NCBI RefSeq assembly: GCF_022376445.1 | Contig: NW_025955092.1 | Location: 54,137-118,136 of the forward strand | Direction: 5' to 3' | DNA from: Fomitopsis serialis | Taxonomy: Eukaryota; Basidiomycota; Agaricomycetes; Polyporales; Fomitopsidaceae | DNA length: 64,000 bases | Shown here: piece after piece, positions 13,740-50,446 of the stretch | How the letters are laid out: each line of letters opens with the position of its first letter | How positions within the stretch are numbered: position 1 is the first letter of the stretch | Made by a program: the position numbers and the translations under genes | Notes under the pieces: model-generated | Database searches by the model: none | What the model was told of the DNA's origin: nothing | What the model saw: the letters and a program-made list of their open reading frames with translations, nothing else

Positions 13740-14473
13740 GGTGACAGACGAGAGCCTGACACCGAGACCAGCATACGGCGGCCCGGCGGGAGCGGACTGG
13801 TGACGCGGTGGCATCAATGATCGAGATCCCGATTTGGTCACCGCCACTGTGGCTTTGCTGTGGCTGTGAGCAACTTCAACTCCGAGTCCCGAATGCTGGT
13901 CGCGAACTGAAGCCTTCTGTTCGAAGAGCAAGCTATTTCATGATAGGCCTGCTGCTAGTATGCTTCTATCGCGACCCCAATCGCCCGAGATCGGACCAGA
14001 ATATGAAAGCCGTGAGCTTGAAGGCATTTCGATTCCTTTGAAGTGAACGTCGTCGCGTCTGAAGATCATGGTGATATTCCACAAGTGGTCAGAGACAGTC
14101 GCACAGCTCTACTTCGCACATTCCACCAGACCGTCGCCGAATGACACGCCTTAATGCGCAATCCCCTTGACTCGACGTGTCACCCAAATATCCGTCTAGG
14201 GATGCTTTGTCCACCATCACGGTGGAAACGCTCTGACCTGCGCACTCTTCTTTACTCTTCTATCACTCCGTGCCCGTCGCGGAGTATACCAATCAGGCAT
14301 ATCGTGCGCATCAGCCATTATCATGCCCGTCATCCGCATGGCGCTGACCACAGCCTCGCCCTTTCCAGCGATTGCTTTGTCTTCGATGTGGACCCACAAA
14401 CACCCAAATCCGGAAACCGTCCTCGTATCGCGGTCCACGCTGCGGACCGGACTGGGCTCGTGGATGTGACACC

Positions 14474-14507
14474 CACGTGTCAGCGGCCTTTGTGCCAAAC
14501 GTATAAA
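14474..14507 (+). promoter_or_regulatory. Conserved E-box plus TATA box in copy A
   Basis: The palindrome CACGTG, a bHLH-type site, is followed after 22 bp by TATAAA. The same order recurs in copy B (18652-18657 and 18689-18694), in copy C (25055-25060, with the weaker AATAAA from about 25084) and in copy D on the minus strand (44832-44837 and 44795-44800). Conservation in four copies argues for a functional RNA polymerase II promoter. Confidence 0.6.
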
Positions 14508-15205
14508 TGGACTTCGATATGCGGCCCTCTTTCGCCCAACCGCGACTCCCCCTCCTCCTCTCTCCCCACCTCCAGGCTACCTCCCGCCCACGTCTCTTGC
14601 TCACTCGCTATATGGCTCTTTCCTCAAGTGGTCCACCTCGTCAGCCGCGCCAAGCCCTGTGTACCCGACCACCGTAGGGACGCCACTCGTCGACAAAGGG
14701 CGCGCGTCGCCGCGTACAAAGGTATGTCGACCATGCGTCCCCAACGGACGCCCTCGATCTGACCCGACGCGTAGAACTACGCTCACGTCGCGTTGAAGCT
14801 TCGCCGTCGGTCGCTGCCAGCCACACGCGACCTCGAGTGGCGTTCATCGACTGTCAGCCTGCGCCACCGACGCGTCGCGAGTTCGACCAGCCGCCCTGTC
14901 AGCCGCCGTGATACTTAAGGCGCCTGCCCTCTGGACTGTGTACGTTTCTTTTGTCTGTCTTGTCCCCGTCTGCGCCTGCTCCGCCTGTCCGACCTGCTGC
15001 GTCCGAGTAAAGTAAACTCGGCGGCAATATCCATTGGGAGATTGGTACGTCTGCTCGCTCGTCGTCTCGCACGTCCCCTACTCACCACCATTCGTACGTC
15101 AAGTGCCCAATGGATCGTAAGGGAACATGTGGTCACACACAGCAACAGAGTTGCGTCAACATGTGTGTGATTCGTCAAGCGCCGGAAGCTGTGGCTGCCT
15201 CAAGA

Positions 15206-15472
15206 GCCCGAGGTCGGGCGAAGGGTCAAGCGCCGCAAGGTAAAGGAGGCTGGCCTCAAGGGTGCTCGAACGAGCGAAGGGTCAAGCGCCGCAAGAAAGT
15301 CATGGGAGCTAGCCTCCAGAGCTCGGTTTTGAGTGAAGGGTCAAGCGCCGCAAGAAAGTCACAGGAGCTAGCATCCAGGGCTCTGACACGAGCGAAGGGT
15401 CAAGCGCCGCAAGAAAGTCATTGGAGCTAGCTTCCAGAGCTCTGGCATGAGCGAAGGGTCAAGCGCCGCAAG
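15206..15472 (+). repeat. Tandem hairpin array, copy A, 5 units
   Basis: The invariant core GAAGGGTCAAGCGCCGCAAG starts at 15220, 15276, 15335, 15394 and 15453 (spacing 56, 59, 59, 59). Each core is immediately preceded by a short inverted repeat: GCCCGA-GG-TCGGGC, GCTCG-AA-CGAGC, CTCGG-TT-TTGAG (with G.U pairs), and two with GCTC/GAGC stems. Spacings are not multiples of three. Confidence 0.85.
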
Positions 15473-15640
15473 GACATGGCTGCGTCAAGTCCTCCCGAGG
15501 GCGGGCGGGCATCGCGGGACGCGGTGTCTGTCCGGGCGCGGACCTTTACGTGGTCCTCGGGATAAGTACCCTCGCACTCGTGCGGGGGGAAACTAACTCG
15601 CGCCGAAGTCGATGATGAGTATTTTCTTTCGAGCTCTCGG

Positions 15641-17749: not shown

Positions 17750-19862
17750 GACGACGGACGCGTACAGAGCGGCATCTCGTGATCTCGTGACGTAGTGGCG
17801 TCAGTGATCGAGATTGCGATTTGCTCCCGCGGCCAGTCGGGCGACTCGGGCGACCGGTATGGCTTTACGGTGGCTGTCGACTTCATGCTGTCTGTTCGCG
17901 TCGCACGACCCATATCGCTCAGGGCTATGTAATTCAAAGGGACCCAACGCTTGCTGTAAGTGTTTTTATGCATTGGAAACTGTTGTCTTAACTTTTAGTT
18001 TGTGGCAATTGACGATGGCACATTGCGACTGGCACTTCCGAGTCGCCGCCGGCTCGGACTCGGATGCGCACTGGTACTTGCGTTGACCGAATACTGAAGT
18101 CTTCTACTCCACTAACAGATGTATCAGTGACAAATTGTATAAAACACTACTGGGTGCTGCTGGTGGAACTCTAGTTTCCCCCAGGTCAAACATGAACCAG
18201 GAGTCGAACATATTCTAGTAAAGGGACGCCTCTGAGTCATTCCATCGCCACAAGCCAAGAGCGGCGGTATTGATGCATCTCTACCTTCCCACATCCCTCG
18301 AAGTGGTCACTGGCCTATACGCCCTATCGCGGAATCCCTGACTCGACGTGTCACCCAAGTATCCGTCTAGGGATGCTTTGTCCTCCATCACGGTGGAAAC
18401 GCTCTGACCTCCGCACTCTTCTATCACTCCGTGCCCGTCGCGGAGTACATCAATCAGGCATATCGTGCGCATCAGCTATTATCATGCCCGTCGTCCGCAT
18501 GGCGCTGACCATAGCCTTGCCGTTCTCAGCGATCTTTTGTCTTCGATTGTGGACCCACAAACCTGAATGCCCAAATCCGGGAACCGCTCCAGAGTCCACG
18601 GCCTTGGCGGGCCTACGCTATGGACTAGGTGGGGTCTGCGATTGTGACACCCACGTGTTCGCGGCCTTTGTGCCACTCGGGCCAAACATATAAAGGGACC
18701 TCGACGGCCGCGCTTTTGCCGCCCAACGACTCTTCCTCTCCCCCCACCTCCAAGATGCCTCTCGTCCACGACACTTGGTCGCTCGCTATCTGGCTCTGCT
18801 CTCACTGGCAAGTGGTTCTCCTCGTCAGCCGCCCCGGATTCTGGATGCCGACGCCACATGGACGCCACTCGTGGACAAAGGGCGCGCATCGTCGCGCACA
18901 AAGGTACGTCTACCACCCCTTCTCAATGGGCGCCCTCGATCTGATTCGACACGTAGACCGACGCTCATGTCGCGTTGAAGCTTCGCCGTCGGTCTCTGCC
19001 AGCCACACGCGGCGTTCCTCGACTGTCAGCCTGCGCCACCGACGCGTCGCGTGTTCGACTAGCCACCCGGTCAGCCGCTACGCTACTTGAGGAGTCTGCT
19101 CTCTGAATCTGGACTGCGTGCGTATCGTCTTGTCTGTCTAGTCTCTGTCTGGGCCTGTTCCGCTTGTCCGACCTCCTGCGTTCGAGTCAAATGTCCTCGG
19201 TGGTGATCATATTCAGTGACATTGGCCAAGTGGTACGTCCTCACGACAGTCATCGTCCCCTTCTCCGACTCACTGTGAGTCGCATCTCAGGCCTCCGATG
19301 GATCGTAAGGCAAGATACGCGCCGCAACAGAGCGCGTCGACTGTGTGTGTGTCGGCCAAACGCCGGAAGCTGTGGCTGCCTTAAGAGCTCGACGTCGGGC
19401 GAAGGGTCAAGCGCCGCAAGGTAAAGGAGGCTGGCGTCAAGGGTGCTCGAACGAGCGAAGGGTCAAGCGCCACAAAAGAAAACGGGGCTAGCTTCAAGGG
19501 CTCTGGCAAGAGCGAAGGGTCAAGCGCCACAAGGACATGGCTGCGTCTAGTGCAAGAGCAGCAAGTTGGGCCACCCGAGGGCGGGCGGGCATCGCGGGGA
19601 CGCGGTGTCTGTCCGGGCGCGGACCTTTACGTGGTCCTCGGGATAAGTACTCTCGCACTCGTGCGAGGGGAAACTAACTCGCGCCGAATCCGAATCCGAG
19701 GTTGGAGGTATGTCGTTTGCGCAACCCGATGTATCTTAGTACCAGAATCTGCTCCTATCTGCCAATACAATTTCTTTCGTTGCGGACTGTCGATGCATAT
19801 GTGATCGTGAGGAAGCCCGCAAAACAGTGAGGCAAGAGTTCACCTTGGCAAACCGACTGATC
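17750..19862 (+). repeat. Repeat element copy B
   Basis: Same orientation as copy A. Weak similarity starts near 17790 and strong similarity near 18340. It has CACGTG 18652-18657, TATAAA 18689-18694, an intron-like segment 18904-18956 (GTACGT, CTGATTC, CGTAG), three array units (19387-19533) and a terminal hairpin 19650-19669 (CTCTCGCAC-TC-GTGCGAGGG, one wobble). The 3' tail continues past the hairpin to about 19862 and resembles copies C and E. It directly abuts the duplicated gene module that starts near 19880. Confidence 0.8.
19387..19533 (+). repeat. Tandem hairpin array, copy B, 3 units
   Basis: Cores start at 19401, 19457 and 19514. Preceding hairpins are GCTCGA-CG-TCGGGC (one G.U pair), GCTCG-AA-CGAGC and GCTCT-GGCA-AGAGC. 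The third hairpin pairs fully where copies A and C have the mismatch-bearing GCTCTGGCAYGAGC. Cores 2 and 3 have CCAC for CCGC. Confidence 0.8.
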
Positions 19863-20306
19863 CACGACTACCTTCGGCGTTCCCCTGCACAATACGCCGC
19901 TCGGTGCCGTCAACTGCGTATCAGACTTCACGTCTACTAAACCCTGACGGCTTGACCGAGTGCATGTAGATGTGATTACGCATGGACAAGGTTTTGGGGG
20001 ATACACGAAGCGTTGGGGTGGAGTTGAGAAGCCGAGTACCAGCTAAGCACGGGAAGACTACGACTATGAATGGTACCATATGAGCGTTACGACAGTAGTC
20101 GCTGTGCCGGGTCCCTTGGACCATTCCCTAGTGAACACATACCGCATGAGCTGAATGAAAGGCACCGGGTCCCACTCGGCATTCACACTAGGAGCGTGAA
20201 GGCCCGAGAACATATACTGTTGGGTCAAGCCGTTAACAGAGCCATGGTAACTGGATACGAAACATCGTACCTACCCTGAGATCGCACGAGAAACAAGAGT
20301 CGGTAC

Positions 20307-21704
20307 TCAAATACACGCGCAATATATCTCTATCCTCACGTTCCCTATATGTACCATTCCCCCACCACCCTCCATTGTGGTAGTACAAACGGATAGTTCG
20401 TCGCCGGGTGGGAGGCTATTCAACCACTCCTGTAGTTCTGCATCCGCGCAATCGTCATCTGTACGGAAACCGTCCCATTGCACCAGATAGATTGAACGCA
20501 GGCGAGCCGTTGCCGTATCATCGCATACGATCAGACGGCGCTGGTCCGGCTTGCTTTTGGCCTGAACCTCGAACCATATCTGTGACGGGGAGTCACTATT
20601 CAAGATAGACTCCGGTGACAACGGGACTAAGGAAATACGTGAACTCTCACATGATTGCCTCACAGTAATTGAGACACTCACCGATGTCGTGTGATTCGAT
20701 GGTGAATACGATTCTACGTACCGATCTGTGCACTTTCGCAGGCTCCGGAATCCGTGCACTGGCCCAGTAGGACATCGTTTTTGGCGAGTAGGCATTTGGC
20801 ACTGTAGCAGTTCCTCCGTTCCCTCCTTTGCCGACCGCCCGGACCCAATACTCCGCATAATCCAAGATATCGCATACAGTGGTATGCGGCAATCTCAAAT
20901 GGAGGGTGAGTAGCTTCTCGGTTTCAAGGACATCATTTGCATGTCTTGGAATATATCCATATCTTTTTCCATCGAAGTCAGAATTCCGTGAAGACAAGAC
21001 TTATTGGGAAAGACGTACGGTGATTGTGCCCGTAGTTCATTTACAATCTTTTGAAGCGGCTGATCCAAGATTTCCTCCTGGTCTCCCGAAAGCCTGCTTG
21101 CTCTCCCCTGACTTCGTCCGGCTCCAAACAGCCGTAAGAACCGCTTGCGTAAGCCTATCGGGGCAGACGGCCAGGTGAGACTAGCCATCGTATCGTGGAG
21201 ATAAAAGAGTGGGTGTACGATTGCTGCGGTATGCGAGTTGAAGTCTAGGAGGGGATCGGTGACCGGGAGATCTCGTGCAAGCTCTATGATCTCGTAGAGG
21301 CGTTCACCGTGCACTGAGGCATCGATCTTGTGACGGGGTGCGACTTGGAACAGAGTCATTAGCAGGGAGTATGCCGCGGCCTGAACCTCCATTCCATCTA
21401 TCCCAGGAGCATGGAACGAGTACGACTCGCCATGGACACATAGTCGCCCACTACGCCAAATTGTTCCCCAACACACCTCGTGGCCGTGCTGCGTCTCGAC
21501 AGTATGAAAACGCATGGCTGGGTTGCGATTTTTAGACATCGCTGTCGGCCCATCGCACCTGGTATTTATCTCGGTAGTTTCAGAGTCGCACGCTTTGAGT
21601 TTGATGTCAAAGCTCGTACCATATCTGAGCAGACGCGCGAAAGCGCCCCTATACCGCAACAACGCCTCGGAGACCCTCAAGTCTGGGTGTTCGACGCTAT
21701 TCAT
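20307..21704 (-). CDS. Three-exon protein of a locally triplicated family, intact copy
   Basis: Exons 21019-21704, 20682-20962 and 20307-20626 give 428 residues, with all phases agreeing. Landmarks: VEHPDLRV near the start; a central block with GESYSFHAPGIDGMEV and LPVTDPLLDFNSHTAAIVH; CDILDYAEYWVRAV in exon 2; and a C-terminal block with QIWFEVQAKSK, LVQWDGFRTDDDCADAEL and NSLPPGDELS. No catalytic motif or membrane segment is recognised. From memory, the DYAEYWV element followed by a beta-rich end resembles uncharacterised agaricomycete proteins; this is inference. It is divergent from the methyltransferase copy by only 44 bp. Introns 1 and 2 lie at the same places in the other two copies. 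Copy 3 has a longer N-terminus, so the 5' end here may be incomplete. Confidence 0.65.
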
Positions 21705-21748
21705 CTCCTCTAAGCCACGATACGATAGTCCAAAGGATTCTGAAGGCC

Positions 21749-22424
21749 ATGCCAGCCCAAACAGCATTCCACGTTACCCTCCTGGACACGGTGGCGTATA
21801 TGACCCATCGCTCGAGCTGGCGCCGACGCCGACGCCGAAGGACGACGAAGTGAGGAAGGATTTCAAGCCTACGGAGCTGATATTTGGCAAGGTTGCGAGG
21901 CGGATGGGAGACGCTGTCAAGGTGAGTGTAGCGACGCTCGTGTACACCGCATTTATGACGATGCTGACATTATGGTCGCTGCCAGTACATGACGCGGGCG
22001 AGTGCCGGGTGCAACACCGCCGTGCTCATCGCGCCGAGTTCAGCACGACCGTCCTCCGAAAGCTGATTCTCGTCTGAAGCGGTGCAGCTGCACAGATACA
22101 AACCACGTCCATCTTCCTCGCTGGAAGCGCGTTCACCGTCTTCGGTGCGGCGGTCCATGTCGCATGTTTCCGGACGCTGGACATGCTCTTCACGTTCGAG
22201 GTGACGGTGAAGGAAGGCCACCAGCTGCGCACGCGCGGACCGTACTCTGTTGTGCGTCACCCGAACTACACCGGGTGGTGCGTGCAGACCGTCGGCGAGG
22301 GACTCGGAAGCGGGGTGGTTGGACAAGCCGGCAGGTATGGTCGCAGCGCACGTCTTCGTGAGAGGTCAGGCGTACGCCGGGCTGAGTATGATCATGCGAT
22401 GCGGTCAGGAGGATACCTTGCCAG
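21749..22424 (+). pseudogene. Truncated isoprenylcysteine methyltransferase-like copy
   Basis: The reading starts MPAQTAFHVTLL and contains KDDEVRKDFKPTELIFGKVARRMGD, an intron donor (GTGAGT at about 21921), and later FTFEVTVKEGHQLRTRGPYSVVRHP plus NYTGW, the signature of the ICMT/phospholipid methyltransferase family. Compared with the copy at 46000-46788, one base is missing near 21818-21826, shifting the frame. The last exon is cut after the codons for GGYL: at about 22424 the sequence switches to the 3' flank of the next module. It therefore lacks the C-terminal substrate-binding end and is not expected to be active. Confidence 0.75.
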
Positions 22425-22719
22425 GGAGATGCAACTGCGCATGCACAAGGCCTTTGGGGACACACGAGGCGTTGGGATGGAATTTATTATCTGAGTACAC
22501 TGAGCGTTACGACGGTAGGCGCTGCGCTGGGACTATTCCCCAGTAAGGACATACCGCATGAGCCGAATGAAAGGTCCGGGGTTCCCACTCGATATCCACG
22601 CTATCAACGTGAAGGCCCGAGATCATATCCTGTTGGGTCAAGCCGTCAACAGAGCCACAATAGCTGAATACGCAGCATCGTACCTACCCTTGGATCGCAC
22701 GAGAAACACGAGTCGGTGA

Positions 22720-24110
22720 TTAAACACATGCGCAATATATCTCTATCCTCACATTCCCCATACTAGAAAAGATTCCCCCGCTAGCCTCCCTTGTAGTACA
22801 AATGGCTAGCTCGTCGCCGGGTCGGAGGCTATTCAACCACTCCTGTAGTTCCGCATCCGCGCAGTCGTCATCTGTACGGAAACCGTCCCATTGTACCAGA
22901 TGAATGGCGGGCCGGCGAGGCGTTTCCGTGAAATCGCGTACGATCAAACGGCGCTGGGTCGGCTTGCTTCTGGCCTGAACCTCGAGCCATATATGTGACG
23001 GGATGTCACTATTCGAGATGGACTCGGGCAACAACCATGAGTCTGTGAGTACGTACGTGAACTCTCACACGGATGTCTCGCAGTAACTGAGACACTCACC
23101 GATGTCGGATAATTCGATGGTGAATATGATTCTACGTACCGATCTGTGCACTTTCGCAGACTCCGGAATCCGTACACGGGCCCAGTAGAAGACCGCTTGT
23201 GGCGCATGGGAGGGATCTGGCACTGTAGCAGCGTCTACGTTCCCTGCTTTGTCGACCGCCCGGACCCAATACTCCGCATAGTCCAAGATATCGCACACGA
23301 TGGTATGCGGCAATTCCAAATGGAGGAGTAACTGCTCGGTTTCAAAGACATCATTTGCATGTCTTGGAACATACCCATATCTTGTGTTTTGCACCGAAGT
23401 CAGAATGCCGTGAAGACAAGACTATTGGGAGAGACGCACGGTGATTGCGCCCGCAATTCATCTACAATATTCTTAAGTGGCTTATCCAATATTCTTTCCT
23501 GCTCTCCCGACAGCCCGACTCCCTTTAGCCGTCGGAACCGCAAGCCCATGCTTACCGGGGTATACTGGACCATCAAATCGTGGAGATGAGAGATTAGGTG
23601 TACGATTGCTGCGGTATGCGAGTTGAACTGCAGGAGTGGGTCGGTGACGGGGAGATTGCGCGCAAGCTCTACGATTTCGTGGAGGTGTTTACCGGGCGCT
23701 GAGGCATTGACCATGTGGCGGGGTGCGATTGTGAACAGAGTCATCAACAAAGAGTTTGCCGTGGCCTCAACCTCCATTCCGTCTATCCCAGGTGAGTGGA
23801 ATGAGTACGACTCGCCATGGACGCGCAGTCGCCCGGTGCGCCATATCGTCCCCCAATGCACTCCCGATTCGTAGTCGCGCTGCATTGTTTGCATGGAAGC
23901 ACAACCTGAAGGCGAGTTTCAAGTTACGGTTACTATCCATTGTCATCGGCCCATCGCACCTTAGACTGGTGTCGACCTCGGTTCCAAAGTCAATCCCAAG
24001 TGGCGCACCTTGAGTTTGATCACAATGCTCGTGCCATATGTGGGCAGACGCGCGAGAGCTTCTCTATAACGCCGGCACCTCGGAGATCCTAAGTCTGGGT
24101 GTTCGACGAA
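22720..24110 (-). pseudogene. Second copy of the three-exon gene, 5' part decayed
   Basis: Exon 3 (22720-23042), exon 2 (23100-23380) and the 3' part of exon 1 (23440 to about 23870) are intact and match the copy at 20307-21704, including CDILDYAEYWVRAV and the LVQWDGFRTDDDCADAEL block. Upstream, homology to VEHPDL...KYGTSI continues to about 24110. It needs several frame changes, with a stop after RSTPV near 23961 and a region around 23870-23960 that fits only in a third frame. The gene could still be transcribed. Its 5' end abuts repeat copy C. Confidence 0.7.
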
Positions 24111-24164
24111 CGACTGGCCCTCCGAAGAGAGCGCGACAACTTGAACTTGAACTGAGTGGCCGCT

Positions 24165-26392
24165 GCAGAACCGTGACGACCGACGCGGCGGCACGGTGGC
24201 ACCACAGCCACCAGCGATCGAGATCTACGCCACGACCGCCATCAAGTCACTCAGCTGCGACAGGCGCCGACAGCCTCAGCCTCAGCCTCACTGGCCTGAG
24301 CTCAAATTGCTAGACTCCAGGCCTATACGACGTCTACCATCATGATATAAAGCGTTTTATTGCTTCCAGTTTGGTTTCGGGCAACCTAGAATTCATGGCA
24401 CCAAGTTGCCAATGGGCCGAGCCTCGTGAGGTTGTGAATTTCGAGTCTCAGGCTGAGTCGACTGCCAGTCACGTATGTACAGTATGTCGTTCTCCCCGAC
24501 GTTCACTGTCAACCCTATAGCTTACAGTGAAAAAAAGGATACTCGCTGGAACTTGCGCTGATGCAGACAAAGCGGGTCGAAGTCTCTACTTAAACACATC
24601 ATGTACTCACTTCACCAGACTAGCTTAATTCCCTAGGTCGACCCCGAGCGTAGCTGTCTGTCTGATCTTCTGTCGATGCTCCTATTTGCAGGTCTTGCGG
24701 TACGTCGCGGAATATTATCTACGTCACGCTACCGTCTCGCTCGCCCTGATGCGGAGTCCTCGACTCACCGTGTTACCAGGCTATCCACCCAGGGATGTTT
24801 TGTCCTGTGCCGCATTAGAATCACTCCCGCCTTCGCGCCCCGTTTCCTACTCGTGCCGGCCGCGGAGTACACCAATCAGGCATATCGTGCGCATCAGCCA
24901 TTATCATGCCCGTCGTCCGCATGGCGCTGACCATAGCCTCGCCGTTTTAAGCCATCGTTGTCTTCGAGGTGGACCCACAAACACCCAAATGCAGAAAACG
25001 CCCTCGTATCACGGTCCACGCTACGGACCGGACTGGGCTCGTGGATGTGACACCCACGTGTTCGTGCCCTTTGTGCCAACCGAATAAATGGACCTCGATA
25101 TGCGGCCCTCTTCCGTCCAACCGCGACTCCTCCTCCTCTCTCCCCACCTCCAGGCTACCTCCCGCCCATGCTTCTTGGTCGCTCACTATCTGGCTCTGCT
25201 CTCAAGTGGTTCTCGTCAGCCGCTCCGGGTTCTGGATGCCGACGCCACAACGACGCCACTCGTCGACAAAGGGCACGCGTCGTCGCGCACGGTACGTCTA
25301 CCATGCCCTCCCAAAGGACGCACTGAGTCTGATTCTGGCGCGTAGACCGACGCTCACGTCGCGTTCGAAGCTTCGCCGTCGGTCCCTGCCAGCCACACGC
25401 GACCTCGAGTGGCATTCATCGACTGTCAGCCTGCGCCACCGACGCGTCGCGAGTTCGACCAGCCGCCGGTCAGCCGCCGTGATACTTAAGGTGCCTGCCC
25501 TCTGGACTGCGTACGTTTCTCTTGTCTGTCTTGTCCTCGTCTGCGCCTGCTCCGCCTGTCCGACCTGTTGCGTCCGAGTAAACTCGGCGGCGATATCCAT
25601 TGGGAGATTGGTACGTCTGCTCGCTCGTCGTCTCACATGTCCCCTACTCACCACCATTCGTACGTCAAGTGCCCAATGAATCGTAAGGGAAAAGATGGTC
25701 ACACACAGCAACAGAGTTGCGTCAACATGTGTGTGACGCGTCAAACGCCGGAAGCGGGGGCTGCGTCAAGAGCCCGACGTCGGGCGAAGGGTCAAGCGCC
25801 GCAAGGTAAAGGAGGCTGGCCTCAAGGGAGCTCGAACGAGCGAAGGGTCAAGCGCCGACTGGCTTGCCTCAAGAGCTCAGTTTTGAGTGAAGGGTCAAGC
25901 GCCGCAAGAAAGTCACAAGAGCTAGCATCCAGGGCTCGGATTCGAGTGAAGGGTCAAGCGCCGCAAGAAAGTCATGGGAGCTAGCCTCCAGAGCTCGGTT
26001 TTGAGTGAAGGGTCAAGCGCCGCAAGAAAGTCATGGGAGCTAGCATCCAGGGCTCTGGCACGAGCGAAGGGTCAAGCGCCGCAAGGACATGGCTGCGTCA
26101 AGTCCTCCCGAGGGCGGGCGGGCATCGCGGGACGCGGTGTCTGTCCGGGCGCGGACCTTTACGTGGTCCTCGGGATAAGTACCCTCGCATTCGTGCGAGG
26201 GGAAACTAACTCGCGCCGAATTCAAACCCGAGGTGGGAGGTATGTTTGCGCAACTACACGTATCTTCGTACCAGATCGCGCTTCTGTTTGCACGTACTAT
26301 ATATATTTCTGTTCTTGTGGCCTGTCGACGCGTATGTGATCGTAAGGGACTTCGCCACGCGATGCAAGAGCTGAACTTGTCGAACCATCTTC
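24165..26392 (+). repeat. Repeat element copy C (longest)
   Basis: Fullest copy. The start is shared with copy D (GCCGCTGCAGAACCGTGACG near 24162 and, inverted, near 45715). It has CACGTG 25055-25060, a TATA-like AATAAA from about 25084, an intron-like segment 25292-25345 (GTACGT, CTGATTC, CGTAG), a hairpin 25699-25736, six array units (25772-26085) and a terminal hairpin 26182-26201 (CCCTCGCAT-TC-GTGCGAGGG, one wobble). Past the hairpin a tail ending near GCAAGAGCTGAACTTG (about 26376) matches copy E closely. Frames inside, such as 24969-25679, are not preserved in other copies. Confidence 0.8.
25772..26085 (+). repeat. Tandem hairpin array, copy C, 6 units
   Basis: Cores start at 25786, 25842, 25889, 25948, 26007 and 26066 (spacings 56, 47, 59, 59, 59). 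Stems before the cores are GCCCGA/TCGGGC, GCTCG/CGAGC, CTCA/TGAG, CTCGG/TCGAG, CTCGG/TTGAG and GCTC/GAGC. The CTCA/TGAG unit replaces the G.U pair seen elsewhere by A.U. Because 59 is not divisible by three, one open frame through the array reads the core as EGSSAAR, KGQAPQ and RRVKRR in turn. Confidence 0.85.
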
Positions 26393-26865
26393 GACTACGT
26401 GTCGGATTCTGCTATGGAAAAAGACGCGTCGTTGTTGTAATTGCGGTGACCTCGACGTTTCGAGATCGCGTGAAGGCAACGATGGCATGAAACCGACGCG
26501 CCTTGGAGCGCGTCGTGCACGTGAGCGCGGTGTGTTGAAACGCCGCTGGGGAGGCCGCGCGGTCTATTTCGGGCAGACGCGCTCGCGATGCCGCTATTCT
26601 CGCAACGAGCCCACTGCTTCTCGTCCCCGTCCTCTGCGCTCCCATCGACGTCCGCTGCGTGCTGGAGACCAGGCTGAACACCATCCAAGGCTTGTTCCTC
26701 GTTGCGTGGAGTCAAGTCATATAGAGCAAAGGTCAGCAGGCGGCGCATGGCGGCAAGTGCCTGTGAAGTCATCGACCTCATTCCCGCCTTCCTGATCCTC
26801 TCGCACGACCACTTAACACCGCAGCCCTTCTCTCTTCTCGGGGCCGAGCACCCATCCCTGCCGCT
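26393..26865. other. Upstream region of the anoctamin gene
   Basis: 473 bp between repeat copy C and the next start codon, with a C/T-rich tract just before the ATG. A 190-codon minus-strand frame across 26395-26967 overlaps the first coding exon and has no protein features, so I treat it as a shadow. Confidence 0.5.
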
Positions 26866-40003: not shown

Positions 40004-41977
40004 TCATCTCGTCCGCTCCCCCTTCCCCTCCTCCTCGCCCACCCCCTCCACAACGGTAAGCCCCTCAATCTCCGCTTCCAGCGCCCAGGCATCCCCGTCA
40101 TCCATGTCTGGTGGGACAATCACGCTCGTCTTCTCCAAGGCAACTGCATTCCTCTCCGCAACAGTCACCACCTCCCTCAACTCCCTCGGCACGAAAGGCG
40201 ACCCCCCAACGCCGGGGCTCGGCGGGTAAAGCGAGAACGGGCTCGGCGGGGCGAGCGCAGGGCTCGGGAGCGCCGCGAGCTTCATCTTCTTCAGCGCCAT
40301 GCTCGCCGGCGCCTGCATCTGCATCCGCATCCCCAGCGGCAGCCTGCTCAGTCCCAGATTCATCCCCAACCCCGCACCGACGCGCGCTGCCGCCTCAGGC
40401 TCTTCCGGGGCGCCATAATGGCCGACGTCCACCTCAGGGTAGATCGAGCTCAGCGGCGGCGTCTGCCCCGCGGACGACGACGTCAGCCGCGCCGCGAAGT
40501 ACTCGTACTCCGCCAGCGCCGGGCGCGCGTGGCCCCCAAATGCATGGCTGCGTCCGCGTGCACCGGCTTCGTCGCCGTCCTGGTCCTGGTCCGTGTCCCC
40601 GTCGTGCTCGTCCGTGTCGCTCTCGGACGCGGAGCTCAGCGCGGGCGTGGAAAGGTCCGTCGGCGATAGTGCGCGCGCCGGGAGGTCGTTATAACCGTCC
40701 GATTCGTCTGTCTCTCCGTCTGGCGAGACGTCCAACGGGCTGTCTGAGCCTGAAGCGGCGGATGTCACTGACAGAGCTGACGCGGGGGTTGGCGGGGACG
40801 GTGACGGCTCTGGGATGGGAGCGAGGGTCGGTGTTGGTGCGAGCTCAGACTCGGGCTCCATAGCGCCCTCTGTCTCGGACGCAGGCTCTGGACGCGGCTC
40901 TGGAAGCGAGGGCGGGAGTGCGGATGGTGGTGAGGGCGGGGCGACGAGCGGGAGGAAGGTCATGTTCATTCGCTGCTGAGATGCTGTCAGCCGTACCGGT
41001 TCTGTAGGAGGTGGCGGCGGGGAGGCGGGCTGGACGGGTAGAAGCGGGATGAACGAGAAGGAGGGTAGGCGGCGGCGGACAGGTGGCGGAGATGTGGCGG
41101 TCGGTGTCGATGGGGATGATATGGGAGAAGGCGAGATGGAGTGTGACGGCGACAAAGGGAAGGGTAGCGAGGGAGGAGGCGAACTCGAAGGAGGTGCAGG
41201 CGGCGTCTGCACGGGAGAAGGTTGTGGCGGAGGTGATAGAGTTGGTTGCGGTGATGGTGAGTCGACCCTGGCGATGGGTTCGGACTCTGCGAGCAGCTCT
41301 GGACTCGAAGGTTCGGGCTCGGGCGGGGTGTCGAGCAGCGGTAGCAGCCGGATGGGGACGGCGTCGAGGTAGGGGAGGATGTCCGGGTCGAGATCCGCGC
41401 ACGGCGTCGGGGTGGTGCCGCGGTTCTTCCACTTTGATGGCGTGTGGCTGGGCTGGGCTGCGAAGCGGGAGACCGGGAAGGGTCTGGACGAGGACGCGGC
41501 GGCGGTGTAGGCGGTGGGGAGGGAGGTCGTGAACGGCTGGCGGTAGGTGGGGGGCGGGGCAGGGCGGGGGAGGGAGAGGCGGAGCTGTTTGAGTTCGAGG
41601 ACGTCTCTGCGGGCGGGGCGTGAGCAGCTGCTTTGAGGGTGCAGAGTCGCAGAGGTGCCTGTCCGGCTGCGCGCCCGGCCAGCTGCATGATGCGGGCCAT
41701 GACGTCGCTCCGCACGCTGCGAGCCGGATTAGGCAGGCACGGACACCGGGCGTGCATGACTCGGATCGCGCAAGGGAACAGACACTCACTCGTAGGATAG
41801 CTTCGGGGTCACCGGCGCGGGCGAACGGTCCCACTCGTCCACCTCGAAGACCTCTTCCAGGTCGTCGTCCGCGCAGAACGACACTGTCTTCTGCAGCTGT
41901 GGCCGCTCGCCCGGCGAGGGTGGCGCAGACGCGTACGGCGAGTACGGCGGACTCGGGCTCTTCAGGCAGCTCTTCAT
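40004..41977 (-). CDS. Proline/serine-rich protein with a KTVSF PP1-docking-like motif
   Basis: Two exons, 41790-41977 and 40004-41606 (183-bp intron), give 596 residues. The N-terminus MKSCLKSPSPPYSPY leads to KTVSFCADDDLEEVFEVDEWDRSP at about residues 30-53, where KTVSF fits the RVxF consensus that binds protein phosphatase 1 (inference). WKNRGTTPTPCADLDPDILPYLDAVPIRLLPLL follows early in exon 2 and looks like a conserved segment. Most of the rest is low-complexity Pro, Ser, Ala and Glu with a strongly acidic stretch (SESDTDEHDGDTDQDQDGDE). Further ordered-looking blocks are RLTASQQRMNMTFLPL and PFVPRELREVVTVAERNAV. It could be a phosphatase regulator. No enzymatic domain is recognised. Confidence 0.75.
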
Positions 41978-43681
41978 CGCGTGCGTCGTCCGCGTGTGGA
42001 GGATAGGTAGGGATGCAGGGTCTAGATGCGCTAGCGGGAGTGCGGATCGTCTAGAGTGGAAAATTGAACTCGGAGCACTGCGGGTCTAGGAGTGTGTCGT
42101 GTGCGCGTCGCGGGTCGTCGCGATGGCCGTCTAGAATGCTGGCGGGTGTGCGGGGGCGTCGAGTGAGCGGTGCGGGGTGGGCGAGGGAGATATAGGGCGG
42201 CGGCCGGGTGAGCGGGAGGGAAAAGGTCGCCCCTCTGCCCGCCACGTGAGCGCCAAAGAGGGCGATCCCGGAACGCCCGCGTTTGTCGCGACGGAGCCTT
42301 GACGGAGCCCGCCCCGCCTCCTCGCGCTTGTCGGCGCCCAGTCCCCTTGACGTCGCCGGCCATGTCTTCTCCCTCCCCTTCGTCCCCCGCTGCCTCGTCC
42401 CGCTGCCTCTTTCTCCCTCTCTATCCCTCTATGCAGTCGCTCGCCGGTGCGTTCCTCAGGCACATACACGAATATCAGCTCCGTGCGCCATATTTGCTTC
42501 CGCCCTCCTGCTTCCGGAAGCTCACTTGCGCTGCCAAAACGCGTCGAACCGCGCTCATGCGTGTCGCCCCTCGTGTTTCCCTTGGACGTAAACAGCTGAG
42601 GCGCGATAGGCACGAGGGGGCGCTGGACGGTCAGGCGGGGCGGATCTAAGCGTTTCGTGTACCAGTGCGTGCGGTATATGATGCTATCTATGTAGCTCTT
42701 TCATTTCGCGGAATTGACGCTGTTGGCCACTGGCGCAGGTGTCGCGCACTGCGCGTAAGGTGTGTCACATCGCGTTGCTGTTCGTTCGAGCCGCAGGCAC
42801 GCCGTCGCGTGGGCCAAACCTCTGCCGTCAGACAGCTTGTAAATATTGTCATCGCGACTTTTACTCCGTACTGCGTTCGAGGTACTTGTCCGGGCTCAGG
42901 ATGTTCCAGTCCGCGCCTCCAACGCGCTTTGGACAATCGATGGACCGCTCATGCTTGAGTTCTTTCGGCCCTCTGTGGGCTCCATGTCGCAAGCATGAGA
43001 ATCTGGATGGCTCCCGGACACCGTCGTGTCTTCCACCACTCGCAGATTACATCCACCAGGCCGAATCGCTTAGTTAGGCTGTCGCGGGATCCAGCTGCAC
43101 GGAGACCCCATTTTCCTCCGCCACATAGGTCAGGAGCATGGGACGCTCGAGAAGTCCGTGCGGCGAACAGGCGCAAGTGACGCACCGCAAATACCAGGTA
43201 AGTTTACCCTTCTGCGACCTACGCGTCATACGCTGAATGGCCTGCCGCGCAGGACTTGCGGGAGACGCGCGGGGTGTTTCTGAGTAGCGGGTGTATCCGC
43301 CACGCCGAGTCGAGAATGGGCATGTACAAAGGGATGCGGCAGGATGAGATATGGACGTCATGATTCGTTAGAGACGAGGAATCTCACTCGTTGACAAGTA
43401 TTTAATGTATGATCCGGTGTGTACGTTACGCAGAAGGCGATAGTCATCCCTATTTCTTTCAACATCGTAATAGGCAGGAGGTAACAGACGGCGGAGTGAT
43501 GACCGCCAGGGTTGGTCTCAATCTGAGTGAACAAGTTCGTGCAATGGGCTCTAGACGGGATCAGACAGTCAGGGATCCAGCCATGAACAAACGGCGCGAA
43601 CCAAGACATTCATTCTGCTACGAACGGCCATATACGACAAATTACGAGATGCTCGATCTCGGGAACGACGACGGAACAGAA
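41978..43681. other. Intergenic, 1.7 kb
   Basis: Upstream of the proline-rich gene (minus) and ending at repeat copy D. Plus-strand frames around 42283-42649 are Ser/Pro/Arg-rich and overlap the presumed promoter, so I do not call them. A TATA-like box for the minus-strand gene is annotated separately. Confidence 0.45.
42189..42194 (-). promoter_or_regulatory. Possible TATA box of the proline-rich gene
   Basis: Read on the minus strand, TATATC in the context CCCTATATCTCC lies about 210 bp upstream of the start codon at 41977. It is followed by C/T-rich sequence. Position and composition only. Confidence 0.3.
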
Positions 43682-45720
43682 ATTACTCATCATCGACTTC
43701 GGCGCGAGTTGGTTTCCCCCCGCACGAGTGCGAGGGTACTTATCCCGAGGACCACGTAAAGGTCCGCGCCCGGATGAGCACCGCGTCCCCGCGGTGCCCG
43801 CCCGCCCTCGGGTGGCCCAACTTGCTGCTCTTGCACTAGACGCAGCCATGTCCTTGTGGCGCTTGACCCTTCGCTCTTGCCAGACCCCTTGAAGCCAGCC
43901 CAGTGAGTTTCTTACGGCGCTTGACCCTTCGCTCTTGCCAGACCCCTTGAAGCTAGCTCCCATGACTTTCTTGCGGCGCTTGACCCTTCACTCAAAACCG
44001 AGCTCTTGAGGCTAGCCAATCGGCGCTTGACCCTTCGCTCGTTCGAGCTCCCTTGAGGCCAGCCTCCTTTACCTTGCGGCGCTTGACCCTTCGCCCGACG
44101 TCGGGCTCTTGACGCAGCCCCCACTTCCGGCGTTTGACGAATCACACACATGTTGCTGTGTGTGATCATATCTTCTCTTACGATCCATTGGGCACTTGAC
44201 GTACGTATGGTAGTGAGTAGGGGACGTGCGAGACGACGAGCGTGCAGACGTACCATTCTCCCAACGGATATCGCCGCCGAGTTTACTTTACTCGGACGCA
44301 ACAGGTCGAATAGGCGGAGCAGGCGCAGACGAGGACATGACAGACAAGAGAAACGCACGCAGTCAGGAGGGCAAGCGCCTTAAGTATCCCGGTGGCTGAC
44401 AGGGCGGCTGGTCGAACTTGCGACGCGTCGGTGGCGTAGGCTGACAGTCGATGAACGCCACCCGATGTCGCGTGTGGCTGGCAGGGACCGACGGCCAAGC
44501 TTCAACGCGACGTGGGCGTCGGTCTACGCGTCGGGTTAGATCGAGGGTGTTCGTTGGGAAGCCTGGGGCATGATAGACGTACATTTGTGAGCGACGACGC
44601 GCGCCCTCAGCTTTGTCCATGACTGGCGTCGTTGCGGCGTCGGCATCCAGAACCCGGAGCGGCTGACGAGGAGAACCACTTGAGAGCGGAGCCAGATAGT
44701 GAGCGACCAAGAAGCGCGGGCGGGAGGCATCCTGGAGAGGGGGGGAGGAAGAGTCGTCGCGGTTGAGTGGCAAAAGAGCGAGCATCGACGTCCCTTTATA
44801 CGTTTGGCCCGAGTGGCACAAAGGGCACGAACACGTGGGTGTCGCATCCGCGAGGCCAGTCCGGTCCGCAGCGTGGTCCGTGATACGAGGGCGTTTTCCG
44901 CATTTGGGTGTTTGTGGGTCCACCTCGAAGAGAAAGCAATCGCTGGAAAGGGCGAGACTATGGTCAGCGCCATGCGGACGACGGGCATGATCACAGCTGA
45001 TGCGCACGATATGCCTGATTGGTGTACTCCGCGGCGGACACGAGTAGGAAACGGGGCGAGAAGGCGAAAGCGATTCTAGTGCGGCACAGGACAAAGCATC
45101 CCTGGGTGGATAGCCTGGTAACACGGTGAGTCAAGGACTCCGCATCAGGGCGAGCGAGACGGCAGCGCGACGTAGATGATGTTCCGCGACGTACTGCAAG
45201 AACTGGGAATAGAAATAGCAACAAACTTTCAGACAGACAGCGACGCTCGGACTCAAGGACTTTAGCTATTACTAGTCTGGTGAAGTGAGTACATGCGTTC
45301 AAGCAGAGACTTCGGTCCACTGCGTATCCATCAGCGCAAGTTCCAGCGAGCACATTGATGTTTTGTTGCTCTGTAAGCTATAGGGTTGATAACGAGAGTC
45401 GAGGATAACGACATACAATGAGCCTTACACCAGTGGCAGTCGCCGAGACTCGAAATTCATAGCGTCACGTTGTCGGCGGTCGCCCACTGGCAAGGTGCCA
45501 TGAGATTCTAAGCTATACAAAGGGGAAACAGCAGACAAGCAAGCGGTTTCTGTGATGATGGCAGACGTCCCGTAAGCCTGAAGTCCAGTAAGTTGAGTTC
45601 AGGCTGAGGCTGACTCGGAGGCTAGGTGCCACTGCCGCGATGGTGGTGGCGTGGATCTCGATCACTGGTGGCTGTCGCGCCCCCGGTGCCACCGCGTCGA
45701 TCGTCACGGTTCTGCAGCGG
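43682..45720 (-). repeat. Repeat element copy D (inverted)
   Basis: Read on the minus strand it has the same order as copies A-C. The shared start is near 45715, CACGTG is at 44837-44832, TATAAA at 44800-44795 and the intron-like segment at 44582-44524 (GTACGT, CTAACC branch, CGTAG). Next come a shortened hairpin (TCACACACA / TGTGTGTGA, about 44165-44142), five array units (44106-43853) and a terminal hairpin 43736-43717. Its 3' tail matches copy A. The extended 5' part (44990-45720) matches copy C, including the stretch ending TTCACCAGACTAG. Confidence 0.8.
43853..44106 (-). repeat. Tandem hairpin array, copy D, 5 units
   Basis: Five cores on the minus strand. Hairpins in transcript order are GCCCGA-CG-TCGGGC, GCTCG-AA-CGAGC, CTCGG-TT-TTGAG and two of the TCT-GGCA-AGA type (GTCTGGCAAGAGC). 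One core has CCAC for CCGC, as in copy B, and one reads GCCGATTGG, deleting the CAAG end, as in unit 2 of copy C. Confidence 0.8.
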
Positions 45721-45999
45721 CAAATTGAATTACTGCTCTCTTCTTCGGATGCACGTCGCACGATGCAAGCAAAACGCCTGGCAAGGCACATCCCTGAATC
45801 TCACTGGCATCATTATACACACGAGCTATCACATTCAAAGCACACTGCAGAACCTCTTTATGAGAAACACCAGTAAATTCGACCGAGCTGTCAGAGCTTC
45901 CCAGTTCGGGCTCCTCAGACAACGTCACTCTCCCTGAATCGAAGTGTCATCTGGCACAGATCCCCTGTTCTTTTCACGCGAATGCAACAAGTTGTCAGT

Positions 46000-46788: not shown

Positions 46789-47035
46789 TGCCTTAAGAAC
46801 CCTTTGAACTATCGTACCGCGGCATGAAGGAGATGAATAGCGTCGACTTGGTACGAAACCTGGCGGTCTGACGACCACAAGGCTTCATACAGAAAACAGT
46901 CCGCGCGTTTTCCATCGCCTAGTCGTCGGGATCGGATAGCTGAGACCTCCAGCTCTGCCTAAGGTGCGGCACGTCGCATGATTTTCTGACACTGACCTAT
47001 GTTTCCTGACCAGGATTCCGGAACCTCTTGGGCGG

Positions 47036-48742
47036 TTGAAGTCATCCTCGGTCCTGACTCTGTGCAACAGCGCTGAGGATCCTAAACTGCTGTGGCGTCT
47101 GATTGAGTTGCTGGGTGCGGAAGGTAAGGATTCTATACCTTTCGAGCTCACTTTCTCATTCGGTGAATTGTTGCAGTCAGTAAGTCTGGTGAGTCGGGAG
47201 AAAAGACATCCGACTTATCGAAAACACATCGGTAGATGTCATGGATCGCTGAGGGGCCGGCCCGCTAGTGGTCTGGATGGTGATGCATTCTACTCATGGT
47301 TCATTGAACATGGAGTTTATATGGGATGGCCCAGTGGTTCTGAGTACTTACTCGTGGAACACCCAGACTTGAGCTTGAGGGTCTCCGAAGTGTTGTGGCG
47401 GTATAGAGGCGCTCTCGCGCGTCTGCTCAAATATGGCACGAGCATTGACATCAAACTCAAACCGTGCGACTCTGGAACCACCGAGGTCGATCCCAGGTGC
47501 GATGGGCCGGCGATGGATAGTATTCGCAACCCAGCCATGCCTTTCCATACTGTCGAGATGCAGCACAACCACGAGGTGTGTTGGGGAACGATTTGGCATA
47601 GTGGGCGACTACGTATCCATGGCGAGTCGTACTCGTTCCACGCTCCTGGGATAGACGGAATGGAGGTCGAAGCGGTGGCAAGATCTTTGTTGACGACTCT
47701 GTTCCTTGTCGCGCCCTATGACAAGATCAATACCTCAGTGCACGGTAAACGCCTCTACGAGATCATGAAGCTTGCGCAACATCTCCCAGTCACGGATCCA
47801 CTCCTAGAGTTCAACTCACATACCGCAGCAATCGTACATCCACTCCTTCATCTCCACGACGCGGTGCTCGCATGTGCACGGCCAGTTGCCCCGATAGGTC
47901 TACGCAAGCGGCTCCTGCGGCTGTTTGGAGTCGGACGAAATGGGGGGATGCCAAGCTGGCTTTCGGTAGAGCAGGAAGAAATCTTGGATCAGCCACTTGC
48001 AAGGATTGTAAATGTATTGCAGGCACAATCACCGTGCGTCTCTCCCAATGATCTTGTCTTTGCGGTATTCTGACTTAGGTGGATAAAGATATGGATACGT
48101 TCCAAGACATGCCAATGATGTCCTTGAAACGGAGAGGCTACTCACCCTCCTTTTGAGATTGTCGCATACCGTTGATATGCGATATCTTGGATTATGCGGA
48201 GTATTGGGTCCGGGCGGTCGGCAAAGCAGGGAACGTACAACACACCTCAGTGCCACATCCCGATCACAGCCCACACGCGGTCTGCTACTACGCCAGTGCA
48301 CGGATTCCGGAGTTTGCGAAAGCGCACAGACCGGTACGTAGAATCGTAATCACTCTCGAGTCGCGCACAATCGGTGAGTGTTTCAATTACTGCGAGACAT
48401 CCGTGTGAGAGTTCACGTATTTCCTCAGTCCCGTCGTCACCCGAGTCCATGGATGGCGACTCCCCGTCACAGATATGGTTCGAGGTTCAAGCCGAAAGCA
48501 AGCCGAGCCAGCGCCGTTTGATCGTACGCGATGATATAGCAACTGCTCGCATATCCGCAATTCATCTGGTGCAATGGGACGGTTTCCGTACAGATGACGA
48601 TTGCGCGGATGCGGAACTACAGGAGTGGTTGAATAGCCTTCCACCCGGCGACGAGCTGTCCATTTGTACCACAATGGAAGGTGGTGGAGGAATGGTTTCT
48701 GTGGGGAACGTGAGGATAGAGATATATTGTGCGTGTGTCTGA
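47036..48742 (+). pseudogene. Third copy of the three-exon gene, frameshifted in exon 2
   Basis: Exon 1 ends at 48033 and has the longest N-terminal frame of the three copies, open from about 47036 without a clear ATG until 47321, so upstream exons are likely. Exon 2 is 48089-48373 and exon 3 is 48429-48742. Donors and acceptors match the other copies (GTGCGT...AAAG and GTGAGT...CTCAG). Around 48165-48175 copy 3 has one extra base compared with copies 1 and 2 (between the codons for SHT and CDI). This moves CDILDYAEYWVRAV into another frame and would truncate the protein. The C-terminal exon is intact. Sequencing error cannot be excluded. Confidence 0.65.
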
Positions 48743-49564
48743 GCACCGACTCGTGTCTCGAGTCGTGCGATCCAAGGGTAGGTACGATGTGTCGTATCCG
48801 GCTGCCGCGGCTCTGTTGACAGCTTGACCCAACAGGATATGTTCTCGGGCCTTCACGCTCCTAGCACGGATATCGAGTGGGAACCCCAGACCTTTCATTC
48901 GGCTCATGCGGTATGTCTTCACTGGGGAATGGACCAAAGGCTCTAGCGCAGCGCCTACTGTCGTAGCGCTCAGTGTATTCGGATAATAAACTCAATCACA
49001 ACGCTTCGTGTGTCCCCAAAGGCCTTGTATATGCGTAATCGCATCTCCATGCACTTGGTCAGGGCTGACTAGTGGACATGAAGTCTGATACGCAGTTGAC
49101 GGCACCGAACCAAGGATCACACCCGAGACGTGTCGCACTGCGCGCAGATTTCCACCCTGCTGGGAGCAGCATGGTTGTATCTCTGCTTCACAATTTACCA
49201 GTAAAAAGTTCGAATCCTCGCCGGTCCCGCGCAGTATCCGTATTGTAGACGACTCAAGCACTGAACTTGCTGCTCTCATGTCGTTTCATACAATACTACA
49301 CCACAGTGTACATCTAGTATCAGCGACCGATTCGGACTTCCCGACAGAACGCACAGATAATCCATCTGTCTCGTACGTCTCAGCGCAGTTGCTTACAGCC
49401 GACGACGAGTAATTGGAACACAGTATAGACGTCGTTCAACGAGTGCGTGATATCGAGTGACATCCGTTGCCGTTAGGCGTATGCAGACCAATGCGCCGAC
49501 GTTGAAACGATACTAATTGAAGAAAATGATCCATCATATTGCACAGAAGAACAGCGCGGGTAAC
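48743..49564. other. 3' flank of gene module 3 and unrelated intergenic DNA
   Basis: 48743-49110 is the inverted counterpart of flanking DNA at 19890-20280 and 22440-22700. 49110-49564 shows no gene, tandem repeat or RNA gene that I can support. Confidence 0.5.
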
Positions 49565-50446
49565 CGTGGATGGTTCAGTTCGCCCAAGTTCAGCTCTTGC
49601 CCGATCGCCTTGCGGGCTTCCTCACGATCACATATGCATCGACAGTCCGCACGAAAGAGAATTATATTGGCAGATAGGAGCAGATTCTGGTACTAAGATC
49701 CATGGGGTTGCAGAGACGACATACCTCTTACCTCAAATTTGGATTCGGCGCGAGTGAGTTTCCCCTCGCACGAATGCGAGGGTACTTATCCCGAGGATCA
49801 CGTAAAGGTCCGCGCCCGGACGAGCACCGCGTCCGCGCGCCCGCTCTTGGGTGGCCCAACTTGCTGCTCTTCGCAGCCATGTCCTTGCGACGCTTCACCC
49901 TTCGCTCGTGTCAGAGGCCTGGAAGCTAGCCCCCCTGAGTCCTTGCGGCGCTTGACCCTTCGCTCGTTCGAGCACCCTTGAGGCTAGCCTCCTTTACCTT
50001 GCGGCGCTGGACCCTTCGCCCGACATCGGGCTCTTGACGCAGCCCCCGCTTCCGGCGTTTGACTAATCACACACATGTTGACGCAACTCCGTTGCTGTGT
50101 GTGATATCTTCCTTTACGACCCATTGGGCACTTGAAGTACGGATGGTCGTGAGTTAGGGACGTGCGAACGACGAGCGAGCAGACGTACCATTCTCCCAAT
50201 GGATATCGCCGCCGAGTTTACTTTACTCGGACGCAACAGGTCGGACAGGCGGAGCAGGCGCAGACAGAGACAAGACAAACAAGAGAAACGCACGCAGTCT
50301 AGAGAATAGGCGCCTTAAGTATCGTGGCTGGTCGAACTCGCCGCGACGCGTCGGTGGCGCAGGCTGACAGTCAACGAACGTCACTCGACGTCGTGCGTGG
50401 CTGGCAAGGACCGACGACGAAGCTTCAACGCGACGTGGGCGTCGGT
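49565..50446 (-). repeat. Repeat element copy E (truncated, inverted)
   Basis: Contains only the 3' half of the element: exon 2 from its first base (50446), the full TCACACACA/TGTGTGTGA hairpin (about 50065-50105), three array units (50031-49884), a terminal hairpin (49782-49763) and the long 3' tail shared with B and C down to about 49565. The promoter, exon 1 and the intron are absent. Upstream DNA (50447-50586) is unrelated to the other copies. Confidence 0.78.
49884..50031 (-). repeat. Tandem hairpin array, copy E, 3 units
   Basis: Cores on the minus strand carry substitutions (one TCCAGC, one GTGAAGCGTCGC). The hairpins remain: GCCCGA-TG-TCGGGC, GCTCG-AA-CGAGC and CTC-TGACAC-GAG. The loop of the first differs from copies A (GG) and C (CG) while the stem is unchanged. 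Confidence 0.75.

Follow-up and report, generated by a model that had tools for sequence, protein, structure and literature searches.

What kind of gene or element occurs five times, on both strands, in a 64 kb stretch of contig C38 (hereafter the window) of Fomitopsis serialis (Polyporales), a brown-rot polypore? The initial annotation had described there a repeat family that it did not recognise, with promoter boxes, a short intron and an array of hairpins, and left the choice between a structured RNA gene and a non-autonomous element. Our analysis suggests that the intact copies are likely spliced noncoding RNA genes, in which a predicted 3′ ribozyme of the hepatitis delta virus (HDV) kind would release a repeat-array RNA; judging by sequence, we put the probability of this reading at about two in three. 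The assembly comprises two haplotypes (66 Mb, 806 contigs), and all family counts given here are confined to it; contig C778 is the other haplotype of the window locus.

The family itself is real. Its core, GAAGGGTCAAGCGCCGCAAG, matched the window 22 times with up to three mismatches, against a mean of 0.01 in 100 shuffles, and all 22 matches were inside the five copies that had been marked, on the expected strands. Self-BLAST placed these copies at about 14147–15627, 18319–19894 and 24159–26386 on the plus strand (A, B and C) and at about 43678–45721 and 49537–50450 on the minus strand (D and E). Copy A had been started at 13740, which is not a family boundary: upstream likeness as far as 13740 was confined to A, one neighbouring copy and their alleles. 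The number five holds for the window, but DNA and pattern searches of the whole genome found 21 copies that have the 3′ domain and a truncated one that lacks it. Six members were found at the window locus on C38 and eight on C778; the other loci are C146 (three), C191 (one), C167 (one whole and one truncated), C223 (one) and C558 (one). Because C167 and C146_c, and likewise C558 and C223, differed upstream of the ribozyme by 0 substitutions and by indels of 1–2 nt only, these pairs are probably redundant contigs, and they were dropped as proof of allelic frameshifts.

The truncated copy (C167:13500-19500, near 16070) is an allele of the C146_b array. An unrelated insertion interrupts its array after a few units, and the ribozyme core is absent.

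Candidate ribozyme at the 3′ end

Each copy had been described with a 9-bp terminal hairpin ahead of its tail. This hairpin is actually P4, one part of a larger domain with a pseudoknot that measures about 111 nt and consists, in order, of P1 (7 bp), a J1/2 hairpin, the 5′ strand of P2, an extra G, P3 (3 bp), L3 (UUUACGU), P3′, P1′, AUAAGUA, P4, GAAAC(U/C)AAC and P2′. The order is that of the HDV nested pseudoknot, with a C-N-A-A stretch in J4/2. The candidates in the window are as follows.

15494–15604, plus strand: copy A, HDV-like ribozyme; P1 15494–15500/15555–15561; J1/2 hairpin 15503–15533; P2 15535–15540/15599–15604; P3 15542–15544/15552–15554; L3 15545–15551; loop-E strand and P4 from 15565; predicted catalytic C 15593
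Between 15493 and 15494, plus strand: copy A, predicted cut
19574–19685, plus strand: copy B, HDV-like ribozyme
26107–26217, plus strand: copy C, HDV-like ribozyme
43701–43812, minus strand: copy D, HDV-like ribozyme
49747–49851, minus strand: copy E, decayed ribozyme; P1 with 5 of 7 pairs, P3 with 2 of 3, CUCA for CNAA, no descriptor match

In aligned columns, P1 (7/7), P2 (6/6), P3 (3/3) and P4 (8/8) were all paired in 18 of the 21 copies. The exceptions were the two alleles of E, which is decayed in sequence, and C146_b, where the aligner misplaced a gap. A C-G first pair of P1, a single G between P2 and P3, and L3 UUUACGU were found in all 21. Loop E, whose letters we take to be AGUA/GAA, was found in 20, and C-N-A-A in J4/2, presumably the catalytic-C motif at its fixed distance from P2, in 19, the two alleles of E having CUCA. 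Among the 14 distinct rows, 98.6% of paired cells were standard, against at most 55.0% with the 3′ strand slid. An HDV-fold descriptor free of family sequence, run on both strands of the window, matched exactly A, B, C and D while E failed; it matched shuffled strands 2 times in 10 and 21 times in 200.

In a described fungal variant of the HDV-like ribozymes, the cleavage site has a C-G pair, P4 contains loop E and an extra nucleotide lies between P2 and P3; two members of this variant cleaved in vitro (PMC5640933; BMC Genomics 2017 18:785). All three features occur together in 20 of our 21 copies. Since the first P1 pair is C-G and not the R-Y of the general HDV consensus, the 3′ domain was filed under the fungal variant only. 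The family, which had not been recognised, thus has a 3′ domain that matches a published kind (PMC5640933), and the ribozyme is a member of it. By its sequence the domain is a fungal-type HDV-like ribozyme, with self-cleavage predicted just before P1.

Mean identity among six window-family copies was highest in the ribozyme (0.960) and fell to 0.608 in the next 56 nt and to 0.426 beyond, the drop falling directly after the last base of the ribozyme. The values for the other segments were 0.868 (upstream), 0.855 (promoter boxes), 0.824 (leader and exon 1), 0.800 (intron 1), 0.894 (exon 2), 0.832 (intron 2), 0.852 (pre-array) and 0.905 (array). The ribozyme and the drop after it are the clear conservation signals.

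A loose pattern found 18 family copies and 3 chance places. Among the model matches listed, the opposite strand of ribozyme D scored 24 bits (E 0.0015), which we read as due to the self-complementary helices. A 21-base core stretch had no exact match in the prokaryote genome collection, and two patterns had none in viral contigs; diverged relatives would escape such exact patterns. The 17-nt P3 hairpin matched one viral contig exactly and was set aside as chance (longer hairpin, other flanks, 9.5 bits). Eight viral contigs that fit a loose J1/4-P4-J4/2 pattern were rejected too, 0 of 8 being among the 24 model matches listed.

Promoter boxes, predicted introns and array

Copies A to D have a GGACCCACAAA box, CACGTG, a TATA-like box (TATAAA in A, B and D, AATAAA in C), and a GT-AG intron of 53–59 nt with a CTGA/CTAA branch-like motif. 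These four also have another intron-like stretch (GTACGT..CTCAC..CAAG or CTCAG), the excision of which would join two 10-nt hairpin arms in copy A.

14390–14400, plus strand: copy A, upstream box GGACCCACAAA, also in the three C146 members and the C223 member
14474–14479, plus strand: copy A, E-box CACGTG
14502–14507, plus strand: copy A, TATA box
14722–14774, plus strand: copy A, predicted intron 1, 53 nt (GTATGT..CTGAC..CGTAG), splicing predicted from its signals
15029–15115, plus strand: copy A, hairpin arms ATCCATTGGG (15029–15038) and CCCAATGGAT (15106–15115) flanking predicted intron 2
15045–15103, plus strand: copy A, predicted intron 2 (GTACGT..CTCAC..CAAG)
18652–18694, plus strand: copy B, E-box (18652–18657) and TATA box (18689–18694)
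18904–18956, plus strand: copy B, predicted intron 1
25055–25088, plus strand: copy C, E-box (25055–25060) and AATAAA TATA-like box (25083–25088)
25292–25345, plus strand: copy C, predicted intron 1
44524–44582, minus strand: copy D, predicted intron 1, with E-box at 44832–44837 and TATA box at 44795–44800

The promoter boxes and short intron of the initial annotation were therefore borne out in A to D but not in E, whose homology begins only past intron 1, so that it has no family promoter. Both splice signals of intron 1 were found in all 8 promoter-bearing copies aligned (12 are present at the window locus). Copies 7 and 8 (C778:349500-354500 and C778:406500-411500) are without the long hairpin and the second intron.

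The three C146 members and the C223 member have the GGACCCACAAA box, a TATA box (TATATA in C146_c), the array and the 3′ domain. They also have GTATGT or GTAAGT after a CCAC(T/A)C(G/A)TCAA stretch, and further intron-like stretches; no CACGTG was found upstream of them. In the C146 and C223 members, box, TATA, intron signals, array and ribozyme follow one another as they do in the window copies.

The unit of the array is a 15-nt core, GUCAAGCGCYGCAAG. Each window copy has 3–6 core matches, as first annotated, but 4–7 units once degenerate ones are counted; on the latter count there are 15–17 units at C146, C167 and C191, and 9 at C223 and C558. Unit periods in the window are mostly 47–59 nt. 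All 89 exact matches of GTCAAGCGCYGCAAG listed for the assembly were within these genes; of those listed, 87 were upstream of a ribozyme and 2 in the truncated C167 copy, and the reversed control gave 1.

15174–15472, plus strand: copy A array, 6 core-like units
19355–19533, plus strand: copy B array, 4 core-like units
25740–26085, plus strand: copy C array, 7 or 6 core-like units by two scans
43853–44138, minus strand: copy D array, 6 or 5 core-like units by two scans
49884–50017, minus strand: copy E array, 3 core matches

In 26 distinct units of the C146/C223 kind, the Y and R positions of the core were C-G in 16, U-A in 6, U-G in 3 and U-C in 1 (Fisher p 1.8e-4), a count that covers units fitting our own pattern, leaves the others uncounted and includes units of shared descent. 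This gives weak support to a 3-bp stem, GCY..RGC, which the core may form.

The absence of a conserved frame, as first annotated, was confirmed. The longest open frames of six copies were equalled by 21 to 160 of 200 shuffles, and two frames that span array and ribozyme, taken from C558 and C223, matched no predicted protein at E ≤1. Between C146 copies, 92 of 467, 133 of 411 and, for the pair b-c, 265 of 417 aligned bases were in phase, and in-phase changes showed no third-position preference. Only 9 of 35 allelic indels were multiples of three in the five window-locus allele sets and C146_a/C191, introns included and the two redundant-contig pairs (12 indels, none a multiple of three) left out. 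No reading frame is kept across the family, and a protein-coding repeat was rejected on these grounds.

A weaker form of that idea is that the arrays are decaying genes of a cysteine-rich repeat protein (VKRCKxxCVN-like) that are losing their frame. Many C146 and C223 units do read V-K-R-C/R-K..C-V-N in some frame, and the frames of 145–170 aa are open in three C146 copies. However, frames of shuffle length, the loss of phase for most aligned bases in two of the three C146 pairs, the unit periods, the lack of protein matches and the indel lengths all speak against it, and we regard it as very improbable.

A second ribozyme class and the probable origin of the module

A looser core pattern matched 31 places in the genome, 10 of them beyond the family, and its reversed control matched 0. 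All ten carry UUU(C/U)CGU and CCGGGGG; they are on C4, C11, C109, C120, C179, C235, C375, C418, C490 and C793. Sequence was read for five of the ten. In these five the single-stranded core is nearly unchanged from that of the gene family, with one L3 base different. Their P1 is CCCCCGG/CCGGGGG, perfect in two of the five, against CCCGAGG/CCUCGGG in the gene family, and their P2 is GUGCA/UGCAC. Between the classes compensatory changes do occur, two P2 pairs having changed on both sides (14 of the 21 gene copies and 5 of the 10 second-class copies compared), but within the gene family P2 is invariant and covariation is weak. In the joint alignment of the classes, P2 and P3 cells were 100% paired against at most 59.4% when slid. 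Within the family, the covariation score was reached by 1 of 500 shuffles.

The upstream flanks of the five second-class places (143–152 nt) were unlike one another, no two being alike at E 0.01, while three of the five were alike downstream; this resembles the 5′ end of a mobile element. About 5.6 kb downstream of the C179 ribozyme there is an endonuclease/exonuclease domain, as in non-LTR (long terminal repeat) retrotransposons; about 6 kb of this one element was read. The second class thus looks to be placed at the 5′ ends of retrotransposon-like elements. As the genome has a near-identical core at these apparent element ends, the ribozyme of the gene family probably came from a retrotransposon; the comparison suggests this direction of transfer, from mobile element to gene family.

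The same observations could be taken to mean that the window copies are themselves a non-autonomous retroelement which processes its own RNA by an HDV-like ribozyme, like R2, L1Tc and SIDER. HDV-like ribozymes are known in retroelements (PMC3774820 and PMC4035085), and the ten near-identical cores, the five unlike upstream flanks and the endonuclease domain on C179 would fit. In the window family, however, the ribozyme is at the 3′ end: identity drops after it, and the shared body that follows a 5′ ribozyme of the R2/L1Tc kind was not found. The intron 1 signals are retained in all 8 promoter-bearing copies aligned, none of which is thus an intronless retroposed copy, and the copies lie in segmental duplications together with adjoining protein genes. 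We therefore disfavour a retroelement origin of the window copies and consider it improbable. Of the two choices left by the initial annotation, the structured RNA gene is supported, by the lack of a kept frame, the intron signals and a conservation peak at the 3′ domain, and the element is not supported.

The copies could also be a DNA repeat that is maintained by duplication and recombination alone and makes no functional transcript. The copy number varies, a haplotype inversion of about 17–19 kb has its ends within or close to the C and D arrays, and the upstream region (0.855–0.868) is conserved like most of the transcribed part. Such a repeat would not be expected to have its most conserved segment in the ribozyme with a fall in identity right after it, compensatory P2 changes between classes, or the preserved order from box to ribozyme in the C146 and C223 members. 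This alternative we also hold to be unlikely.

A further alternative is that the HDV fold is kept as a protective or binding structure which does not cleave, the RNA being polyadenylated downstream or ending there. P1.1 is not evident, cleavage was predicted from sequence, and tails of about 20–170 nt after the ribozyme are common to some copies. Against this, 19 of the 21 copies keep C-N-A-A, and the two alleles of E that lack it are broken in P1 and P3 as well; moreover, a near-identical core starts the mobile-element-like sequences, where cleavage would set the 5′ end. We judge a non-cleaving fold to be rather doubtful.

Several observations weigh against a spliced RNA gene with a 3′ ribozyme. 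For the fold, P1.1 (L3 with the strand after P1) is limited to a weak UUA/UAA, with a U-G variant in two copies; copy 7, on C778, is short of the last A of loop E. Within the family two pairs changed on both sides, a number that 189 of 500 shuffles also reached, and the compensation between the classes counts as a single evolutionary contrast and not as many independent events. The HDV-fold descriptor was composed after the family had been seen, so that its settings were not blind. Rfam found no HDV family in the window at gathering scores, nor in copy A or C223 at E ≤10. This blindness to the 3′ domain is in line with two departures of the fungal variant that violate the criteria of earlier searches, as stated in PMC5640933. 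The weak Rfam matches that did appear, NEAT1_2, TMV_UPD-PK3 and H19_2 (E 0.99 to 5.6), are far under their gathering scores and were rejected.

For the upstream part, conservation of leader and exon 1 does not exceed that of the introns. Most copies have a weak AAG as the 3′ splice site of intron 2 (CTCAG in B), and copies 7 and 8 are without this intron. The C146 copies have open frames of 145–170 aa up to a UAA in the ribozyme. The hairpin array of the initial annotation is weakly supported, because the whole array folds no better than shuffles (z −1.40 in copy A, +2.87 in C146_c). The Y-R covariation comes from the C146/C223 kind only and may reflect two inherited unit types; by eye, the GGAGCTAGC units of the window give C-A, and the pairing fails.

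If the intact copies are RNA genes as we propose, RNA polymerase II (Pol II) would transcribe them from the TATA box. Removal of the introns would follow, and the loss of intron 2 would join the arms of a 10-bp hairpin. The 3′ domain would fold as the polymerase passes, with P1 and P2 drawn together by the J1/2 hairpin, and the J4/2 C (15593 in copy A) would aid cleavage of the phosphate between 15493 and 15494. The product would be a capped, non-polyadenylated RNA with a 2′,3′-cyclic phosphate end and about 4–17 array units, and the ribozyme and tail would be discarded. The array would most likely bind a protein in many copies, as a decoy or scaffold RNA, and the ribozyme was probably acquired from a retrotransposon. 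A broader proposal, which we advance tentatively and at somewhat less than even odds, is that the fungus turned a retrotransposon ribozyme into the 3′-end module of Pol II-transcribed, spliced array-RNA genes, about ten or more per haplotype, in place of cleavage and polyadenylation.

Related systems and surroundings of the copies

HDV-like ribozymes of known role mostly process viral or retrotransposon RNA, and host roles are few. Two other self-cleaving RNAs, hovlinc and CPEB3, are inside host transcripts, as here; they are single loci and not 3′-terminal modules of a gene family, unlike the multicopy, 3′-terminal ribozyme of this family. Viral, retrotransposon, human or CPEB3 cases of HDV-like ribozymes are named in PMC4908430 and PMC4035085. 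A conserved host family at several loci that ends in a ribozyme would make a host role, in 3′-end formation, directly testable. With an apparent mobile-element form and a gene form in one genome, the path from element to host gene would be traceable. If our reading is true, surveys of RNA that select for poly(A) would miss this class of RNA.

Among the closest described systems is the fungal variant, which shares the C-G pair, the extra nucleotide, the nested pseudoknot and a loop E in place of part of P4, and has widely variable gene associations (PMC5640933). The extra nucleotide is G here and mostly C there, and our family differs in having a J1/2 hairpin and in its setting, with the ribozyme ending a multicopy repeat-array RNA gene. 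The copies may overlap with the 230 examples of that paper. Large HDV-like ribozymes with a J1/2 helix, such as Agam-2-1 (PMC4908430; Sci Rep 2016 6:28179), are alike in the peripheral P1–P2 helix and unlike in genomic setting, the two points compared. The 5′ ribozymes of the R2/L1Tc type (PMC3774820, PMC4035085) share the HDV fold, and our second class appears to be so placed, whereas the ribozyme of the window family is the 3′ end of an intron-bearing gene. In the literature within reach, which did not include most subscription papers or the PMC5640933 supplement, we found no description of a multicopy repeat-array RNA gene ending in an HDV-like ribozyme; this is no proof of absence.

As for the array, the meiRNA of fission yeast, which is noncoding and contains repeated motifs, sequesters a protein. 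It is alike in having an array of short motifs in a noncoding RNA and unlike in motif, structure and 3′-end formation; the analogy in function is conjectural.

A link with the mating type was considered and rejected: of 53 STE3 matches, none was on C38, C778 or C146, and those on C223 were about 473 kb off.

The haplotype inversion (about 17–19 kb) spans 25980–44848 of the window, against C778:523544-542183. It breaks within or close to the arrays of C and D, two copies of opposite orientation, and probably arose by recombination between them.

A duplicated stretch is present between RNA copies at 19901–21696, 22422–24109 and 47353–49108 of the window. The frame of one copy of this stretch matched B0H18DRAFT_646915 (97%) and B0H18DRAFT_983894 (58%), the sole two database matches, both from F. 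serialis. At 61907–63844 of the window an exonuclease-endonuclease-phosphatase frame precedes one for a GRF zinc finger; judging by this pairing, the two are perhaps one AP-endonuclease-2-like gene.

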